Shown piece by piece: positions 23,162 through 56,468 of a stretch of 64,000 nt of DNA. The notes under the pieces were generated by a model. The model did not search any database and was not told the DNA's origin. It worked only from the letters and a program-made list of their open reading frames with translations. Position 1 is the stretch's first letter. Every line of letters begins with the position of its first letter. The position numbers were made by a program, and so were the translations under genes. This DNA is from Thalassotalea fonticola. GTDB taxonomy: Bacteria; Pseudomonadota; Gammaproteobacteria; Enterobacterales; Alteromonadaceae. The DNA lies in the NCBI RefSeq assembly GCF_032911225.1, contig NZ_CP136600.1, positions 1,612,001-1,676,000 of the forward strand, written 5' to 3'.

Positions 23162-24352
23162 ATGAATAAGCAATTTTTACGGTTAACCATATATGTGGTG
23201 GCATCGCTGATCATTCTGGCCGTCACTCTGGAAATAATTTGGGAAGAGTTTGTTCCGCAAGAAACCATTATTTCAGCCGATGATTTTTATCAGTCTGCTA
23301 TTGAAGAAAATGGTCAAATATTTTCGATGCAGCCGCTCAATAATATCATGTTACCTGGCGAACTCATTGAACAATTAAAAACCGGTGAAATTATCCGTCT
23401 TGATGATAATGAAGATCATTCTTATTACTATAAGTTGCATCAACAGCAAGTATTGGTACTTGGCCCTATCATTGATATTCAAGAAGCCACCAATATCGAT
23501 GAAATTATTACTTTAGCCTTCTACATTGGCTTTTCCGGCTTATTGTTGCTTTGGTTTCGACCTGCCTTTATGGATTTAAGAAAGCTTTCCGGACATGTTA
23601 AAAGCTTCTCAACAACCGCCAAATGGCAAACGCTTGATTTGAGGCCGACTTCTATTGCATTCCCAGCAGCTCATACAATCAACAAGATGGCTGAAAGAAT
23701 TGAACAGTTAATCGATTTGCAAAAAAATTTATCACGCATGGTGGGCCATGAAATCCGTACTCCTTTGGCGCGCACAGGCTTTTCAATTGCCAGCTTAAAA
23801 TATGAGCCAACCATGGAAGAGATCCTGTCTATCGAAGAAGACCTGCAAGAAATCGAAGACTTAACCGAAGAGTTCTTACAAATTACCAAATTAGAATTTG
23901 ACTCAAAAGACATAGTTCTAACCAAGCAAAACGTTTATGCGCCAATTGAAGAACTGGTCAATAAACTACAAAGAGCCTCACGTATTAATATCAAAGTTGA
24001 CGTCGATAAGAACTTGCTTGCACCGGTTGAAAGCAAAACCTTTAAGCGGTTAATGCAAAATCTGGTCACTAATGCCCTAAAACATGCTAAAGATGAAGTT
24101 GTGATCCATTTAACCGAGAATAAAGGTATTTTTACATTATGGGTAAGTGATGACGGCAAAGGTTTTGATAAAGCCGAATACTTAGATAAGCCCTATTTTC
24201 AGGCAAATCCTAAAACTGATGGTTACGGCCTTGGATTGTCTATTGTTAAACTGATTGCCTCTTGGTATGGCGGCAGTATTACCTTCGATAAATCAACTAG
24301 CTTAGCGGGTGCTAAGGTGATATTCACCTGGCCTGTAGATGATAACTGTTAA
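23162..24352 (+). CDS. Sensor histidine kinase, 396 aa
   Basis: Membrane-bound kinase partner of the preceding regulator, starting 6 bp after it. Transmembrane segments lie at about 7-25 and 115-132, enclosing a short periplasmic domain of about 90 residues. A HAMP-like linker leads to a HisKA domain with His196 (MVGHEIRTPLAR). The HATPase domain has the N box (NLVTNALKHA), G1 (DDGKGF) and G2 (GYGLGLSIV). The phosphorylation motif is GHEIRTPL, normal for the family. The small periplasmic domain has no recognised ligand site; the co-encoded DUF3019 protein or the MipA-like barrel could feed the signal. Confidence 0.94.
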   Translation: MNKQFLRLTIYVVASLIILAVTLEIIWEEFVPQETIISADDFYQSAIEENGQIFSMQPLNNIMLPGELIEQLKTGEIIRLDDNEDHSYYYKLHQQQVLVLGPIIDIQEATNIDEIITLAFYIGFSGLLLLWFRPAFMDLRKLSGHVKSFSTTAKWQTLDLRPTSIAFPAAHTINKMAERIEQLIDLQKNLSRMVGHEIRTPLARTGFSIASLKYEPTMEEILSIEEDLQEIEDLTEEFLQITKLEFDSKDIVLTKQNVYAPIEELVNKLQRASRINIKVDVDKNLLAPVESKTFKRLMQNLVTNALKHAKDEVVIHLTENKGIFTLWVSDDGKGFDKAEYLDKPYFQANPKTDGYGLGLSIVKLIASWYGGSITFDKSTSLAGAKVIFTWPVDDNC

Positions 24353-24395
24353 AGCCTAGATTGCCACGATTTAGTATTTATTTGTTATGACTATA

Positions 24396-25401
24396 GACCC
24401 TGAAATAAATTCAGGGAATGGTATGTTTGTGAATTCAGGGAATGGCCTAACGTGTAATTCAGCTATTGGTGTCTACTCCACCACTTGCTGAACTCGATAC
24501 GTTAGTATCACCCTGTACTTGTTACGGGGTCTAATCTACCACTTGCGGACTTGTATCAGCCCTCCCCACCACTTGCTGAACTTGTTTCAGCATCTCACTG
24601 TTATTACTTTGGACCCTGAAATAAATTCAGGGATTAGTATGTTTGTGAATTCAGGTAATGGCCTAACGTGTAATTCAGCTATTGGTGTCTAATCCACCAC
24701 TTGCTGAACTCGATACGTTAGTGTCACCCTGTACTTGTTACGGGGTCTAATCTACCACTTGCGGACTTGTATCAGCCCTCCCCACCACTTGCTGAACTTG
24801 TTTCAGCATCTCACTGTTATTACTTTGGACCCTGAAATAAATTCAGGGAATGGTATATTTGTGAATTCAGGGAATGGCCTAACGTGTAATTCAGCTATTG
24901 GTGTCTACTCCACCACTTGCTGAACTCGATACGTTAGTATCACCCTGTACTTGTTACGGGGTCTAATCTACCACTTGCGGACTTGTATCAGCCCTCCCCA
25001 CCACTTGCTGAACTTGTTTCAGCATCTCACTGTTATTACTTTGGACCCTGAAATAAATTCAGGGAATGGTATATTTGTGAATTCAGGAAATGGCCTAACG
25101 GGTAATTCAACAATTGGTGCCTATACCACCACTTGCGAACTTCTATCAGCCCTCTCCACCACTTGCTGAACTCGATACGTTAGTATCACCCTGTACTTGT
25201 TACGGGGTCTAATCTACTACTTGCTGAACTCGTTTCAGCATCTCACTGTTATTACTATGGACCCTGAAATAAATTCAGGGATTAGTATATTTGTGAATTC
25301 AGGTAATGGCCTAACGGGTAATTCAACAATTGGTGCCTATACCACCACTTGCGGACTTGTATCAGCCCTCCCCACCACTTGCTGAACTTGTTTCAGCATC
25401 T
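24396..25401. repeat. Tandem array of 216-bp hairpin-rich units (4 full, 1 partial)
   Basis: Units start with GACCCTGAAATAAATTC at 24396, 24612, 24828, 25044 and 25260, exactly 216 bp apart; the last stops near 25401. Units 1-3 are almost identical. Unit 4 has the same length but its internal blocks are in another order, and unit 5 lacks one block. Each unit carries several short hairpins: CCCTGAA-ATAAA-TTCAGGG, CCTGTA-CTTGT-TACGGG (one G-T pair), TGCTGAA-CTTGT-TTCAGCA and GATAC-GTTA-GTATC. The phrase GAATTCAGGGAATGG also recurs. 216 is a multiple of 3, so short in-frame readings repeat, but no start site or protein-like pattern supports coding. The array lies between a histidine kinase gene and a GIY-YIG gene. 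Confidence 0.93.
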
Positions 25402-25438
25402 ATAATTAATAATTCAACATATTGAAAAGGATTTCATA

Positions 25439-25726
25439 ATGATCAATTGCGCGGTTTACATATTAACAAATAAAAAGCATGGTACTCTTTACATAGGAGC
25501 CACTCGAGATTTACCCCGACGAATAGATCAGCATCATCTACAAGCAATCGATTGCTTCACTTCAAAATACAACTTACGGACATTAGTTTACTATCAATTA
25601 TGCGATCATTTTTATGTAGCATTAACTAGAGAGAAACAATTAAAGAATTGGCGACGTCAATGGAAGATTAACTTGATTGAGGAAGATAATCCTGACTGGC
25701 TAGATTTGAGTAGTCACTTTGCTTGA
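25439..25726 (+). CDS. Single-domain GIY-YIG endonuclease (COG2827/YhbQ-like), 95 aa
   Basis: A complete GIY-YIG nuclease fold: AVY (5-7) in the GIY position, YIG at 18-20, Arg27/Arg28 (DLPRRIDQH), Glu65 in REKQLKNW and the usual closing NPDW. All expected catalytic residues are present and the length is normal for the COG2827 group. AAAAGGA lies 7 bases before the ATG. It is bracketed by the same CCCTGAA-ATAAA-TTCAGGG hairpin: the array ends 38 bp upstream, and another copy starts 12 bp after the stop codon. Stand-alone members of this group have no firmly known role. Physical linkage to a hairpin array suggests that the enzyme nicks or cuts these structures, as RAYT transposases do with REP sequences; this is inference. 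Confidence 0.93.
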   Translation: MINCAVYILTNKKHGTLYIGATRDLPRRIDQHHLQAIDCFTSKYNLRTLVYYQLCDHFYVALTREKQLKNWRRQWKINLIEEDNPDWLDLSSHFA

Positions 25727-25737
25727 TTAGGTATAGA

Positions 25738-25810
25738 CCCTGAAATAAATTCAGGGAATGGTGTAAGGTGTAATTCAGGGAATGGTGTGCTGGTGAATTC
25801 AGGGAATGGT
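25738..25810. repeat. Downstream hairpin and GAATTCAGGGAATGG repeats after the GIY-YIG gene
   Basis: CCCTGAAATAAATTCAGGG at 25738-25756 followed by two more copies of AATTCAGGGAATGG (ending about 25784 and 25809). This matches the head of the 216-bp unit, so the nuclease gene is flanked on both sides by the same element. Confidence 0.9.
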
Positions 25811-25830
25811 GAGCAAGACTTTAAAACAAA

Positions 25831-25860
25831 AAAACCGCCAAATTGAAGTGGCGGCTTTTT
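25831..25860 (-). terminator. Intrinsic terminator of the M16 peptidase gene
   Basis: CCGCCA (25835-25840), loop AATTGAAG, TGGCGG (25849-25854), flanked by A-run and T-run on either side. It is therefore likely bidirectional and also closes the GIY-YIG side. Confidence 0.88.
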
Positions 25861-25881
25861 ATTCACTAAATTTAAAAGCGC

Positions 25882-28665
25882 TTATTTGGCAGAATTTACC
25901 GTTTTAGCAAAATCACCGGCTTTAAAGATATTGATATCAAAAGCGCCAATATATTTATTAAACGCGGTATTAATATCTTCAACAGTTAACTCTTGTACGC
26001 TAGCTACTTGCTCATCATAAAATGCCAGATCTTCCTGTTTTTTGCTTGCGCCAAGAATTACACCAGCTATTTGTGCATCACTTGCCCAAGCGCGGTTACG
26101 GCTACTTACAAAGCCTTTTACCGCTTCATCTAACTCTGTTGCAGTAAAGCCATCAGCAACAACTCTTGCAACTTCTTCTTTATAGGCAGTAATTACACCG
26201 TCCATATTTTCAGGTGCCGCAATAGCAAACGCATAGTACATACCTTGTTTATCAAGCGTACTTACTTGCATGCCAGAGCCAACAGAATAACTGTAACCTT
26301 CTTTAACACGAATTCGAGCGCCAATACGAGATGAGAAAGAATCGCCACCAAAAATAGTATTCGCAATTTTTAACGCTAAGTAATCTTCATGCTTAACATC
26401 CATCATCATTGGGTTAATAACATATAATTGCGCATTAGCTTTGTCTGGAGTTTCTGTGCTTATTATTAGACCACCTTTGTCTTTAAAACTAACAGGCATA
26501 TGCTCATAAGCTGTTTCATTTACAAAACTAGATAACTGAGCATGTAACTGCGTTGAAATACTTGTTGCATCTACATCCCCTACTACACTAATGTGACCAT
26601 TGTTAATATTGGTATGGCTGTTATATAAACTTGCAAGTTCAGCAACCGTTACCGCATTAACGGCAGCAATCTTTTCCTCTAAAGAGAGATAAGCTTTCGG
26701 GTGTCCTTTAGGGTAATTACTTAGTGACTCTCTAAACGTGTTACTGGCAATAGCGCCAGGGTCGTTACGTTGTTTTTCAATACTTGCTATAGAGCTACGC
26801 TTCATCACTTGTAACTCATTTTCAGGGAACGTTGGCGCAGCCATCAATTCACCTAAAAGCTTTACTGTTGCATCTAAGTTAGCTTTGTCGGTATTTATTG
26901 AAACATCGGTTGAACCGGCCGACGTTGAGATTGAGATCGAGCTTTTTAATTGATCAAGTTTACTGGCAATCTCTTGTTTTGAATATTTAGCGTTACCTTC
27001 TTTTAACATAGCACCAACAAAACCAATGGCGTTGCCTTTACTCGCTAGGTTTTCGGCGTTACCGCTTGGAAAGTGCATGCTAATAATAATTTGCTCACCA
27101 CGGAGCTTTTTCGGATACACATTTATTTTTGTGCCTTCATCCCATTGCATTTTAACTAAGCGATTTTTAATGTTAGCAACAGTGTTGTCATAAACTTCAC
27201 CTGCCGCAACTACGGCTTTACCTTTGTAGTCTTTTAATACATCTTTCAGATCTGCCGCTACTGGAATTTCTGCGCGAACTGGCTTTTCGGTCGGAATAAA
27301 ACGGGCTACGGTACGGTTAGATTGAACCAAGTATTTTTCTGCCGCCGCTTGCACTTGCTCTACCGTTGCTTGCGCAATTAAGTCACGAGAATAGAAAATA
27401 TGGCGGTAATCGCCCATGGCGATATATTCAGATAACTCCATGCCAACGCCGGTAACATCACGCATGCTTTGCTCTGCTTGACGTGCTAATTTAGCCTGTG
27501 CTAATTTAAGCTCGTCTTCAGTAATAGGCTGTGTTTTAAGCTGTTCGACAATAGCAATTAACTGGCTTTCTAAATCGGCTAAATCAGAGCCTTTATTACC
27601 TTGTGCCATCAATAAAAATTGCGAGCTGTCTTTCAGGTTAAACATAAAGTTTGTTGCCATAGTAGCAACACCTTTTTCAACCAATGACTTTTGCAAACGA
27701 CCACGTGTTCTGTCACCTAAGATATCGGTTAAAATGTTTAATGCCGCTGCATCTTCGTGTACTGCCGAAGGAGTATGATACGACAAACCTATCACCGGTA
27801 AATCACCAACGCGGCGGATATTTACCGTACGCTCACCGTCTTGAGTAGGCTCTACTGTGTATAAAGGCTCAATTGGTGTTGCAGGTTTGGCAATAGCACC
27901 AAATTTTTGTTCAATTAATGCTTTTGTTTTGGCATTATCAAAACGACCAGCAATAGTTAATACCGCATTATCTGGACGATAATGTTTATTATAAAATTCG
28001 CGCAAACGTGAAAACGGGAAATTTTCAACATCACTGCGAGCACCTATGGTTGAGTTACCATAGTTATGCCATAAAAACGCCATTGATGACATACGGCCTA
28101 GTAACATTCTGAACGGGTCGTTTTCGCCCTTTTCCATTTCGTTACGCACAACGGTCATTTCACTTTTTAATTGCTCTTCAGTAAAAGTCGCGTTAACCAT
28201 ACGGTCTGCTTCCATACCAATAGCCCATTCCAAACTATCTTCATTAGCATCGAATGTTTCAAAATAGTTAGTTCTATCTAACCAAGTCGAAGCATTCTTG
28301 CCCATACCGCGTTTTTTGAATTCTTTATCAATATTTTGATAGTTTGTAGAACCTTTAAACAACATGTGCTCAAGTAAATGAGCCATACCGGTTTCACCAT
28401 AATACTCATGTACAGAGCCTACACGATAAGTAACATTAACTAATGTTTTTGGTTGCGATGCATCAGGGTAAAGCAACACTGTCATGCCATTTTCAAGGCT
28501 GTACTCTTCAATACCTTCAACGCTTCTTACATATGTAAGCTCACTGCTTTGACTTTGTATTTGTTGTGATTGGATGTTTGTTGTATTTTCTGTTGTTGTA
28601 CAAGCTGATAGGCCTAATGCCATGGCAACAGACATACTAATTAGTGTTGGTTTTAGAAATTTCAT
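25882..28665 (-). CDS. M16 (pitrilysin/insulinase) family lipoprotein zinc peptidase, 927 aa
   Basis: Lipobox LSAC with Cys22, so an outer membrane- or periplasm-anchored enzyme. The inverted zinc motif HLLEH lies at 96-100, with the third ligand Glu176 (VVRNEME), 76 residues after His100 as in pitrilysin. Two M16 halves follow, the second about 490-920, with the typical RIRVKEGYSYSVGS near 800. This length is normal for bacterial two-domain M16B-type peptidases that degrade oligopeptides in the envelope. The start has AAGG upstream, and a GTTAA-type box lies 129 bp upstream. It probably finishes peptides released by the S8 and M36 proteases; that functional link is inferred from neighbourhood. 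Confidence 0.95.
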   Translation of the reverse strand: MKFLKPTLISMSVAMALGLSACTTTENTTNIQSQQIQSQSSELTYVRSVEGIEEYSLENGMTVLLYPDASQPKTLVNVTYRVGSVHEYYGETGMAHLLEHMLFKGSTNYQNIDKEFKKRGMGKNASTWLDRTNYFETFDANEDSLEWAIGMEADRMVNATFTEEQLKSEMTVVRNEMEKGENDPFRMLLGRMSSMAFLWHNYGNSTIGARSDVENFPFSRLREFYNKHYRPDNAVLTIAGRFDNAKTKALIEQKFGAIAKPATPIEPLYTVEPTQDGERTVNIRRVGDLPVIGLSYHTPSAVHEDAAALNILTDILGDRTRGRLQKSLVEKGVATMATNFMFNLKDSSQFLLMAQGNKGSDLADLESQLIAIVEQLKTQPITEDELKLAQAKLARQAEQSMRDVTGVGMELSEYIAMGDYRHIFYSRDLIAQATVEQVQAAAEKYLVQSNRTVARFIPTEKPVRAEIPVAADLKDVLKDYKGKAVVAAGEVYDNTVANIKNRLVKMQWDEGTKINVYPKKLRGEQIIISMHFPSGNAENLASKGNAIGFVGAMLKEGNAKYSKQEIASKLDQLKSSISISTSAGSTDVSINTDKANLDATVKLLGELMAAPTFPENELQVMKRSSIASIEKQRNDPGAIASNTFRESLSNYPKGHPKAYLSLEEKIAAVNAVTVAELASLYNSHTNINNGHISVVGDVDATSISTQLHAQLSSFVNETAYEHMPVSFKDKGGLIISTETPDKANAQLYVINPMMMDVKHEDYLALKIANTIFGGDSFSSRIGARIRVKEGYSYSVGSGMQVSTLDKQGMYYAFAIAAPENMDGVITAYKEEVARVVADGFTATELDEAVKGFVSSRNRAWASDAQIAGVILGASKKQEDLAFYDEQVASVQELTVEDINTAFNKYIGAFDINIFKAGDFAKTVNSAK

Positions 28666-44361: not shown

Positions 44362-44380
44362 TCCTGAAATAAATTCAGGA
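44362..44380. repeat. Dispersed CTGAA hairpin, copy near the acetyltransferase gene
   Basis: TCCTGAA-ATAAA-TTCAGGA, 7-bp stem and 5-base loop. It differs from the array hairpin at 24396 only in the outer base pair, and a GAATTCAG follows as in the array. It lies just after the stop codon and may also act as a transcript end. Confidence 0.8.
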
Positions 44381-44423
44381 CGATATGAGTCGAATTCAGA
44401 ACGACCTTAGTTCGACTACGTCA

Positions 44424-44486
44424 TACCCGACCTGTTCGGGTATCCATAAAATATACCAAATAATGGATTCCCGCCTGCGCGGGAAT
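44424..44486. repeat. Two REP-like palindromes in tandem
   Basis: TACCCGA-CCTGT-TCGGGTA at 44424-44442 and ATTCCCGC-CTGC-GCGGGAAT at 44467-44486. Flanking GTCAT and ATGACG match the CGTCAT-type ends of dispersed repeats in marine gammaproteobacteria. No coding content was seen here. Confidence 0.75.
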
Positions 44487-54216: not shown

Positions 54217-54235
54217 CCCTGAATTTATTTCAGGG
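54217..54235. repeat. Dispersed CTGAA hairpin after the ABC exporter operon
   Basis: CCCTGAATTTATTTCAGGG, the exact reverse complement of the array hairpin at 24396, followed by GTCT as the array copies are preceded by AGAC. An inverted dispersed copy. Confidence 0.85.
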
Positions 54236-54260
54236 TCTCTAGCGTTTAAAAATAAATAGA

Positions 54261-54279
54261 TCCTGAACCAAGTTCAGGA
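54261..54279. repeat. Second CTGAA hairpin after the ABC exporter operon
   Basis: TCCTGAA-CCAAG-TTCAGGA: the same 7-bp stem as the copy at 44362 with a different 5-base loop, preceded by AGA as other copies are. It forms a pair with the inverted copy at 54217. Confidence 0.8.
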
Positions 54280-56277: not shown

Positions 56278-56328
56278 AACAGAATTTTAACCGTCCATGG
56301 CAATTCTAAGTTGATTCATCCCTGAATT
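56278..56328. repeat. Direct repeat, copy 1, upstream of the beta-barrel gene
   Basis: 51-bp element containing AACAGAATT and CCGTCCATGGCAATTCTAAG, ending CATCCCTGAATT. It recurs 103 bp downstream with few changes. It is close to the start of the beta-barrel gene. Confidence 0.85.
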
Positions 56329-56380
56329 GAACCAACATTGAAACATCCATGTTATGTTGGCATTCCTTCGTCCCTGAAGC

Positions 56381-56431
56381 AACAGAATTCAAACCGTCCA
56401 TGGCAATTCTAAGTTAATTCATCCCTGAATT
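56381..56431. repeat. Direct repeat, copy 2
   Basis: Second copy of the 51-bp element (AACAGAATT ... CATCCCTGAATT), spaced 103 bp. Between the copies lies CATCCATGTTATGTTGGCAT and another CGTCCCTGAA. Together they may be a local duplication or a remnant of a dispersed repeat. Confidence 0.85.
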
Positions 56432-56468
56432 AAAAAAGCCTTCAATAATTATGATAATCATTGAAGGC
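56432..56468 (-). terminator. Intrinsic terminator of the ammonium transporter gene
   Basis: GCCTTCAAT (56438-56446) pairs with ATTGAAGGC (56460-56468). On the minus strand it is followed by a T6 run. It lies about 30 bp after the amt stop codon. Confidence 0.9.

Follow-up and report, generated by a model that had tools for sequence, protein, structure and literature searches.

A stand-alone GIY-YIG nuclease gene set between matched hairpins: a candidate partner enzyme for CGTC-tagged REP elements

Introduction

Does a small GIY-YIG nuclease gene lying among hairpin-rich repeats in Thalassotalea fonticola stand to those repeats as RAYT transposases stand to REP palindromes? The question arises from a stretch of 64,000 nucleotides, referred to here as the window (G000:C1:1612001-1676000 of a 4.90-Mb single-contig genome), whose initial annotation, made from the letters alone, proposed a REP/RAYT-like system with a different enzyme. 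The HUH enzymes of REP/RAYT systems are described in PMC8266576. For another group of palindromes, the CGTC REPs, the relevant passages of the survey by Di Nocera et al. (2013; PMC3733652) define one of two large REP superfamilies, with a tag CGTC (TGTC, CCTC), an 8-9 bp stem starting with AT, a loop of 4-5 and a tail CCA; its members are mostly paired, and CGTC-1 of Neisseria is the element known as dRS3. Transposases were sought in that survey, and the same passages report no dedicated enzyme for CGTC REPs and leave the mover open. The term GIY-YIG is absent from its text, and a nuclease carrying a UvrC-like annotation may have escaped notice. A portion of PMC9465073 places RayT and a GIY-YIG endonuclease in one clade-specific gene list of Moraxella catarrhalis and does not link the two. 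Among the matches listed in a search of open-licence PMC papers, with subscription papers mostly and preprints wholly outside its reach, no title or abstract opening connected GIY-YIG proteins with REPs.

Results

A conserved nuclease gene framed by an inverted hairpin pair

To judge by eye, the neighbours of the gene (Table 1) are a histidine-kinase-like gene on one side and, in convergent orientation, an M16-peptidase-like gene on the other. Proteins of the GIY-YIG superfamily are characterized by the GIY..YIG motif and by the catalytic residues Y, Y, R, E and N, and the window protein carries both motif and residues; across 104 sequences, Y18, H32, E65 and N84 are present in all 104, and Y7 and R28 in 103. 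Together with the Pfam match, this bears out the description of a catalytically intact, 95-residue GIY-YIG protein in the initial annotation. Comparison with the homologue of a sister species (L034, 90-91% identical to the window protein) yielded a dN of 0.04 against a dS of 1.63, the latter near saturation, and the gene is therefore maintained as a protein under selection. The enzyme is not a Y1 HUH tyrosine transposase of the kind that partners REPs in the RAYT duo: its domain is GIY-YIG, and its structure, modelled by AlphaFold with a mean pLDDT of 89.6, is closest to those of UPF0213 and UvrC. A Foldseek search with the predicted model gave no match at E ≤0.001; the best was UPF0213 1zg2 (2.4e-3), followed by UvrC N-terminal domains (from 0.11) and, more weakly, by Slx1 and I-TevI, and 1zg2 (UPF0213 BH0048) was also the only PDB sequence match (E 7.6e-5). 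Homing-endonuclease models of PHROGs matched part of the protein (2.6e-4 and 3.1e-4), an NCBIfam search found no family above cut-off, and PADLOC, which addresses defence systems, returned weak partial matches only (E 2.9e-4 at best).

TRF placed a tandem array upstream of the gene, at 24383-25352 (+), with a period of 216, 4.5 copies and 91% matches, and a search of the window found CCTGAAATAAATTCAGG at 24399, 24615, 24831, 25047 and 25263 and again at 25739. The array had been annotated as five hairpin-rich units of 216 bp; period and number of occurrences of CCTGAAATAAATTCAGG stand, and the unit has been refined. What recurs is CCACT-TGCTGAACTTGTTTCAGCA-TCT, 16 bp and GA-CCCTGAAATAAATTCAGGG-AATGG, that is, an inverted hairpin pair, and the natural unit is this 64-bp pair rather than the 216-bp period; it was seen at three places (pairs 1 to 3 in Table 1). 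The fourth pair is composed of a right-type end at 25233-25243 and a left-type hairpin at 25260-25280. The further hairpin annotated 12 bp after the stop codon is correctly placed for its CCTG core, since the stop codon ends at 25726 and the core lies at 25739, and hairpins of the same design are, as annotated, found elsewhere in the window as solo copies of CCTGAAATAAATTCAGG at 44363 (+) and 54218 (-).

The region 24568-24640, which spans one hairpin pair, folded as DNA with a z of -4.1, and 0 of 200 shuffles were equally stable. The window palindrome occurs in 43 copies genome-wide at up to 2 mismatches (0 for a reversed control pattern), and paired stem changes are seen among these copies (CCC..GGG / TCC..GGA and AATAAATT / AACAAGTT). 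An Rfam gathering search of 23900-26200 produced no match. The window's own tags have diverged, reading AATGG / CCACT where CGTC is expected, with a tail TCT, and the array falls outside the definition of CGTC REPs by tag (CGTC, TGTC or CCTC), AT-starting stem and CCA-like tail; among 30 genome copies of the window hairpin, near-CGTC tags were present only at L017 (cgtcac), L023 (tgac) and L033 (TCGTCC, on the other strand). This divergence counts against a palindrome-nuclease duo. Elsewhere in the window, a palindrome of a second family, CTACGTCATACCCGACCTGTTCGGG, lies at 44416-44440, about 36 bp past the solo first-family hairpin, so that the families stand side by side. The 52-bp repeats AACAGAATTCAAACCGTCCATGGCAATTCTAAGTTAATTCATCCCTGAATGA at 56278-56434, a near copy of which lies downstream of L034, the homologous gene of the sister species, may represent a further component of this repeat population.

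Table 1. Positions of the nuclease gene and associated hairpins in the window
Feature	Position	Strand	Remarks
GIY-YIG nuclease gene, clade A	25439..25726	+	95 aa; Pfam GIY-YIG 3e-16
Gene-less hairpin pair 1	24569..24632		16-bp spacer
Gene-less hairpin pair 2	24785..24848		
Gene-less hairpin pair 3	25001..25064		
Gene-less hairpin pair 4	25217..25280		Tag start TACT, not CCACT
Upstream border hairpin of gene	25375..25401	+	CCACT-TGCTGAACTTGTTTCAGCA-TCT; tail faces gene, tag outward
Downstream border hairpin of gene	25734..25761	+	TAGA-CCCTGAAATAAATTCAGGG-AATGG; tail faces gene, tag outward
Gene-bearing hairpin pair	25375..25756		GIY-YIG gene lies within spacer of one inverted pair
Three half-hairpin copies AATTCAGGGAATGG	25748..25811	+	Period 24, 3' of gene
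Solo hairpin, window family	44362..44380	+	Tag end TCGTCC on opposite strand
Solo hairpin pair, window family	54217..54278	-	

Tagged hairpins beside one branch of the nuclease

A second homologue in the same genome (L002, G000:C1:1789382-1789648), 54% identical to the window protein, is enclosed, upstream and downstream, by palindromes of another family, the GTCATGCCCGGCTCGTTCGGGTATCC type, whereas a third (L003), distant at 33%, has no repeats in view, which suggested that one branch of these nucleases is REP-linked. A generic CGTC-type pattern has 59 matches in this genome. The branch of interest, clade A, to which L002 belongs, was delimited by a tblastn score of >45 bits to the window protein or a profile E of up to about 1e-15, and the other GIY-YIG branch, clade B, which we take to be YhbQ-like, was used as the control. 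The 134 clade-A loci comprised a domain-wide set of 80, namely, the best 80 of at least 584 confirmed relatives, with records from Pseudomonadota, Nitrospirota, Planctomycetota, Chloroflexota, Myxococcota, a cyanobacterium and others, together with 28 loci from the family and 26 from the phylum. Omitted from the flank count were the fragments L057-L059, L186 (a second copy of the element of L052 in G115), L174 (two neighbouring hits) and duplicate ids (L143-L145 and L158 in the phylum set; L047, identical with L187; L209, with L003; and L176, L177 and L182, with L061, L062 and L060); L164 is cut by a contig end, and its gene position was assumed.

Hairpins with a stem of at least 8 and no more than 1 mismatch reached a density of 6.25 per kb upstream and 5.90 per kb downstream in the first 150 bp around the best 80 of at least 584 relatives; more than 600 bp away the density was 0.75-1.44 per kb, and shuffled sequences gave 0.43-0.79 per kb. 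When a tag was required at the hairpin foot (GAC[GA] or [CT]GTC, within 260 bp of the gene), a tagged hairpin was present on at least one side of 116 of the 134 clade-A loci (domain-wide 73/80, these being the best 80 of at least 584; family 21/28; phylum 22/26) but of only 3 of 39 clade-B loci; both sides were tagged at 78 of 126 clade-A loci (48/72 domain-wide, from the same best 80 of at least 584, and 15/28 and 15/26) and at none of the 39 in clade B. Pseudo-flanks 1.0-1.26 kb away contained a tagged hairpin in 7 of 124 cases upstream and 13 of 122 downstream. Orthologues are thus flanked by palindromes of their own, as would be expected from the initial annotation; the hairpins beside most loci bear the tag of CGTC REPs, their stem and tail were matched by eye, and the arrangement by which REP-RAYT systems are known, a gene flanked by its own REP family, is that of clade A. 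Among 79 loci with a tagged hairpin on both sides, the nearest ones formed a symmetric inverted frame in 64 (P 2e-8), with tags outward in 50 and inward in 14; the remaining 15 were not symmetric.

Eighteen of the 134 clade-A loci lack a tagged hairpin by this rule, which counts against a palindrome-nuclease duo. The window gene and L034 are missed because their tags have diverged, at other misses (among them L038, L044, L049, L055 and L056) palindromes are weak, of a different kind or absent, and at L074 a palindrome is visible by eye in a flank too short for the rule. The clade-A-like gene L056 (G105; 40% identity) is situated among repeats of another design, TTCGACAAGCTCACCATG / CCCTGAGCTTGTCGAAGG.

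Three taxa listed in the 2013 survey were chosen through records that hold the gene, a choice that tests flanks and not gene presence in the listed taxa, and in all three a clade-A gene lies beside CGTC REPs: A. lipoferum, S. meliloti (tag CCTC) and N. gonorrhoeae, in whose record the gene is found between dRS3-type repeats. Six of 22 plasmid records were examined. A suf cluster on plasmid AZO_p3 of Azospirillum lipoferum 4B (L321) has a clade-A gene between its sufB and sufC, and a pair of CGTC hairpins borders the gene at either end.

Repeat number and gene presence

Within the window's phylum, 397 genomes were scanned for the pattern GTCATNCCN{10,11}GGNATCC (a reversed control gave 0 or 1 per strand), and genomes with a clade-A profile E of up to about 1e-15 were treated as carriers; G291, with 1.1e-15 and 0 copies, was included, and 6 genomes with E between 1e-10 and 1e-15 were counted as non-carriers. 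At least 5 copies were present in 52 of 113 carriers versus 21 of 284 other genomes (odds ratio 10.7, P 2e-17), and at least 20 copies in 28 and 6, respectively; genomes with clade B only did not differ from those with neither gene (5/62 versus 15/216, P 0.78). The association persisted within families (266 of the 397 genomes, 21 families), with a Mantel-Haenszel odds ratio of 10.4 and a rank permutation result of 1/20000, so that the repeats are not equally abundant where the gene is absent. Against a duo, 61 of 113 carriers have <5 copies of this pattern, which covers only part of the repeat classes, and 15 of 52 genomes with at least 10 repeats have no clade-A gene at threshold, for which loss, assembly gaps, divergence or another partner enzyme are candidate explanations. 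Genomes rich in CGTC repeats and without such a gene at threshold include G152, G252, G490, G391, G462 and G168.

A second repeat class, GTCANNCTGAAN{3,5}TTCAGNNTCC, occurred in 12 of the 397 genomes, 11 of them carriers (P 6e-6), an association weaker than its P value suggests because 9 of the 12 belong to the carrier-rich family f53 (16/20 carriers) and the other 3 to f47; within f53, the class was present in 9 of 16 carriers versus 0 of 4 others. A chance origin of the repeats was ruled out by the control patterns, shuffles and pseudo-flanks.

Correspondence between hairpins and nucleases

Six genomes with paralogues (G446, G489, G314, G357, G453 and G087) furnished 23 loci, 21 of which have hairpins on both sides. 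In these 21, hairpin similarity was 0.81 within a locus versus 0.25 between paralogues of one genome, a hairpin's own partner ranked first at 16 loci, and 0 of 20000 within-genome permutations reached the observed sum. Each paralogue has its own matched hairpin pair, and the match is largely specific. A quick tree was built from 122 clade-A proteins, 112 of which have an assigned hairpin class; the short L071 was dropped. Hairpin class changed 41 times on this tree, compared with at least 56 times in 500 shuffles; L001 and L034 were classified manually, and the count stays at 41 without both labels. Nucleases with TGAA-type hairpins (L190, L194, L195 and L198, from three genomes of one family) were mutual nearest neighbours, as were three sphingomonad ones (L121, L129 and L130), although L188, L199 and L203, which have other hairpins, also have a TGAA-type nuclease as nearest neighbour. 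Hairpin type and nuclease are, in part, inherited together. Two observations go against a duo: the classes CCTGC and GGnCTTGnnCC are scattered over the tree, and G504 has 20 copies of the window's hairpin and three clade-A genes flanked by other hairpins. The loci L191, L196 and L201 (three genomes of one family) have hairpin frames without the usual tag; with L200 they are each other's nearest relatives and are perhaps a subclade with another tag.

Dispersed copies and gene-less derivatives

At the window's site, the sister species G052 and G504 have one gene-less unit; in G502 and G087, different DNA comes after the kinase gene, and the stretch examined contains none of these hairpins. The sister homologue in G052 lies at a different place, where G000 has no visible hairpin. 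G502 contains two tandem gene copies encoding an identical protein, and 17 of its 19 hairpins are within 20 kb of them. L241, a gene beside the histidine-kinase site in G502, had been guessed by eye to be a RAYT, and this was dropped when Pfam found no family in it.

The 10 profile matches in G505 represent 8 whole copies and two pieces of one broken copy. Six of the 8 aligned copies share hairpin type and a sharp left end, GTGCCATTSAGAGAC-like and about 60 bp before the upstream tag, beyond which the DNA is unrelated; L270 and L271 have other hairpins. Copies in G501 have GTRCCAATCAGAGTCGTTCACA-like ends, on the left in one group of three and inverted on the right in the other. Ends resembling terminal inverted repeats (GTGCCATTCAGAGAC; GTRCCAATCAGAGTCGTTCACATTTTC) were seen at L245, L259, L267-L269 and L272 in G505 and at L247, L257 and L273-L276 in G501. 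They lie well outside the hairpins, which counts against a duo in that a mobile unit bounded in every case by the hairpin foot would not be expected to reach so far; by eye, no target duplications were seen at these copies. G505 has 10 full-length left ends, and many of its partial matches start exactly at the tag (query position 60). The three gene-less pairs examined in G505 (L311-L313) consist of two inverted TTGCGGC hairpins 81 bp apart, with no GIY-YIG frame within 1.5 kb; their inner sequence resembles DNA next to both ends of gene-bearing copies, the full left end is absent, and to judge from this resemblance they look like internal deletions of gene-bearing pairs. Two copies in G164 are homologous as far as the downstream hairpin and no further.

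Discussion

The linkage between clade A and its hairpins is real, wide and largely specific. The best and most economical reading of our analysis is a duo that resembles REP/RAYT but is built on a GIY-YIG enzyme, in which clade A, a stand-alone nuclease of about 95 residues, is the partner of CGTC-tagged REPs; we put its probability at roughly 0.6. The presence of the nuclease gene inside matching hairpins in most of the distant bacteria checked suggests that it is the missing partner of these elements, and the flanks and the genome-wide repeat counts lend support to the system first proposed for the window. That the nuclease nicks the hairpins and drives their spread, as was also proposed, would be in keeping with such a duo. 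The gene-bearing element would be an inverted hairpin pair with tags outward, tails inward and the nuclease gene in the spacer, and the gene-less pairs scattered through the genome would be its shortened derivatives. Where the region becomes single-stranded or is extruded as a cruciform, the nuclease may recognize its own hairpin, by stem and unpaired tag, and cut at the hairpin foot, whereupon host repair or replication could copy the pair, with or without the gene, elsewhere or into a resident pair. We extend this tentatively, at somewhat less than even odds, to a new class of bacterial mobile element in which a minimal GIY-YIG nuclease, the sole protein encoded, serves its own CGTC hairpins as transposase or initiator of copying, and which is the source of CGTC REPs in several phyla, including dRS3 of Neisseria, and is convergent with RAYT.

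The nuclease might instead be a selfish gene of the homing type, for which REPs made by other means are targets and not products: it would cut gene-less pairs and be copied into them. The position of the gene in the spacer of a pair accords with this, as do the single gene-less unit at the window's site in G052 and G504, which is what a homing target would look like, and the weak kinship with the homing-endonuclease models of PHROGs and, low in the Foldseek list, with I-TevI. Repeat number, however, correlates with gene presence in 397 genomes and within families, nearly all hairpins of G502 cluster around its tandem gene copies, the copy in G052 occupies a place without a visible hairpin in G000, and both inner ends of the gene-bearing element are preserved in the gene-less pairs of G505, as would be expected after deletion; we consider homing unlikely. 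Chances that are distinctly poor attach to the idea that gene and hairpins are passengers, the cargo of MITE-like elements moved by an unrelated transposase through outer terminal inverted repeats. The shared left end of six G505 copies, the ends in G501 and the 10 full-length left ends in G505 speak for such cargo, but homology of the two copies in G164 ends at the downstream hairpin, gene-less pairs of G505 lack the full left end, and cargo would explain neither a matched hairpin pair for each paralogue nor near-invariant catalytic residues nor the same partner across many phyla.

A housekeeping role, in which the nuclease resolves REP hairpins or cruciforms or takes part in DNA repair and its neighbourhood reflects regulation or co-selection, not mobility, seems to us highly improbable. 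Weak structural matches include UvrC and Slx1, and passages of PMC1839093 raise a possible function in repair for three C. crescentus genes of COG2827 that have no assigned role, one of which has an SOS box. Such a role sits poorly, however, with the patchy presence of the gene, the 8 whole copies and a broken one in G505, the different positions in sister species, the Azospirillum copy between sufB and sufC and a hairpin type proper to each paralogue.

The palindrome-nuclease duo, if accepted, names a candidate enzyme for CGTC REPs, whose mover was left open in the passages cited from the 2013 survey (PMC3733652), and the candidate is directly testable at the bench because each nuclease comes with its presumed substrate. 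The association reaches beyond a single starting locus: it extends over many phyla, and the repeats correspond to a named REP superfamily for which no enzyme was reported. If the reading is true, REP-type elements have at least two origins, on nucleases unrelated to each other, hairpin-plus-nuclease duos would be a general route to short bacterial repeats, and a role would be provided for many small genes (at least 584 relatives) annotated only as "GIY-YIG nuclease family protein" or as UvrC-like.

Several known systems invite comparison. GIY-YIG homing endonucleases of the I-TevI type have the catalytic domain in common with clade A and perhaps a selfish life style, but clade A has the length of the catalytic domain only and is bordered by hairpin pairs, with no intron or intein seen. 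COG2827 / UPF0213 proteins (YhbQ-like, BH0048) have the same fold as clade A; the YhbQ-like branch, clade B, differs in that a tagged hairpin is a rarity beside its loci. Likeness to CGTC-tagged REPs lies in the hairpins beside most clade-A genes, and the difference lies in the window's own copies, with their diverged tag and TCT tail. With REP/REPIN-RAYT systems (TnpA-REP, IS200/IS605-like HUH; "REPtrons") clade A shares scattered short tagged palindromes that frequently form inverted pairs, a lone gene set between palindromes of one kind and covariation of partner and palindrome, whereas the enzyme here is a GIY-YIG nuclease of unrelated fold and chemistry and the tag is CGTC-like instead of GTAG.
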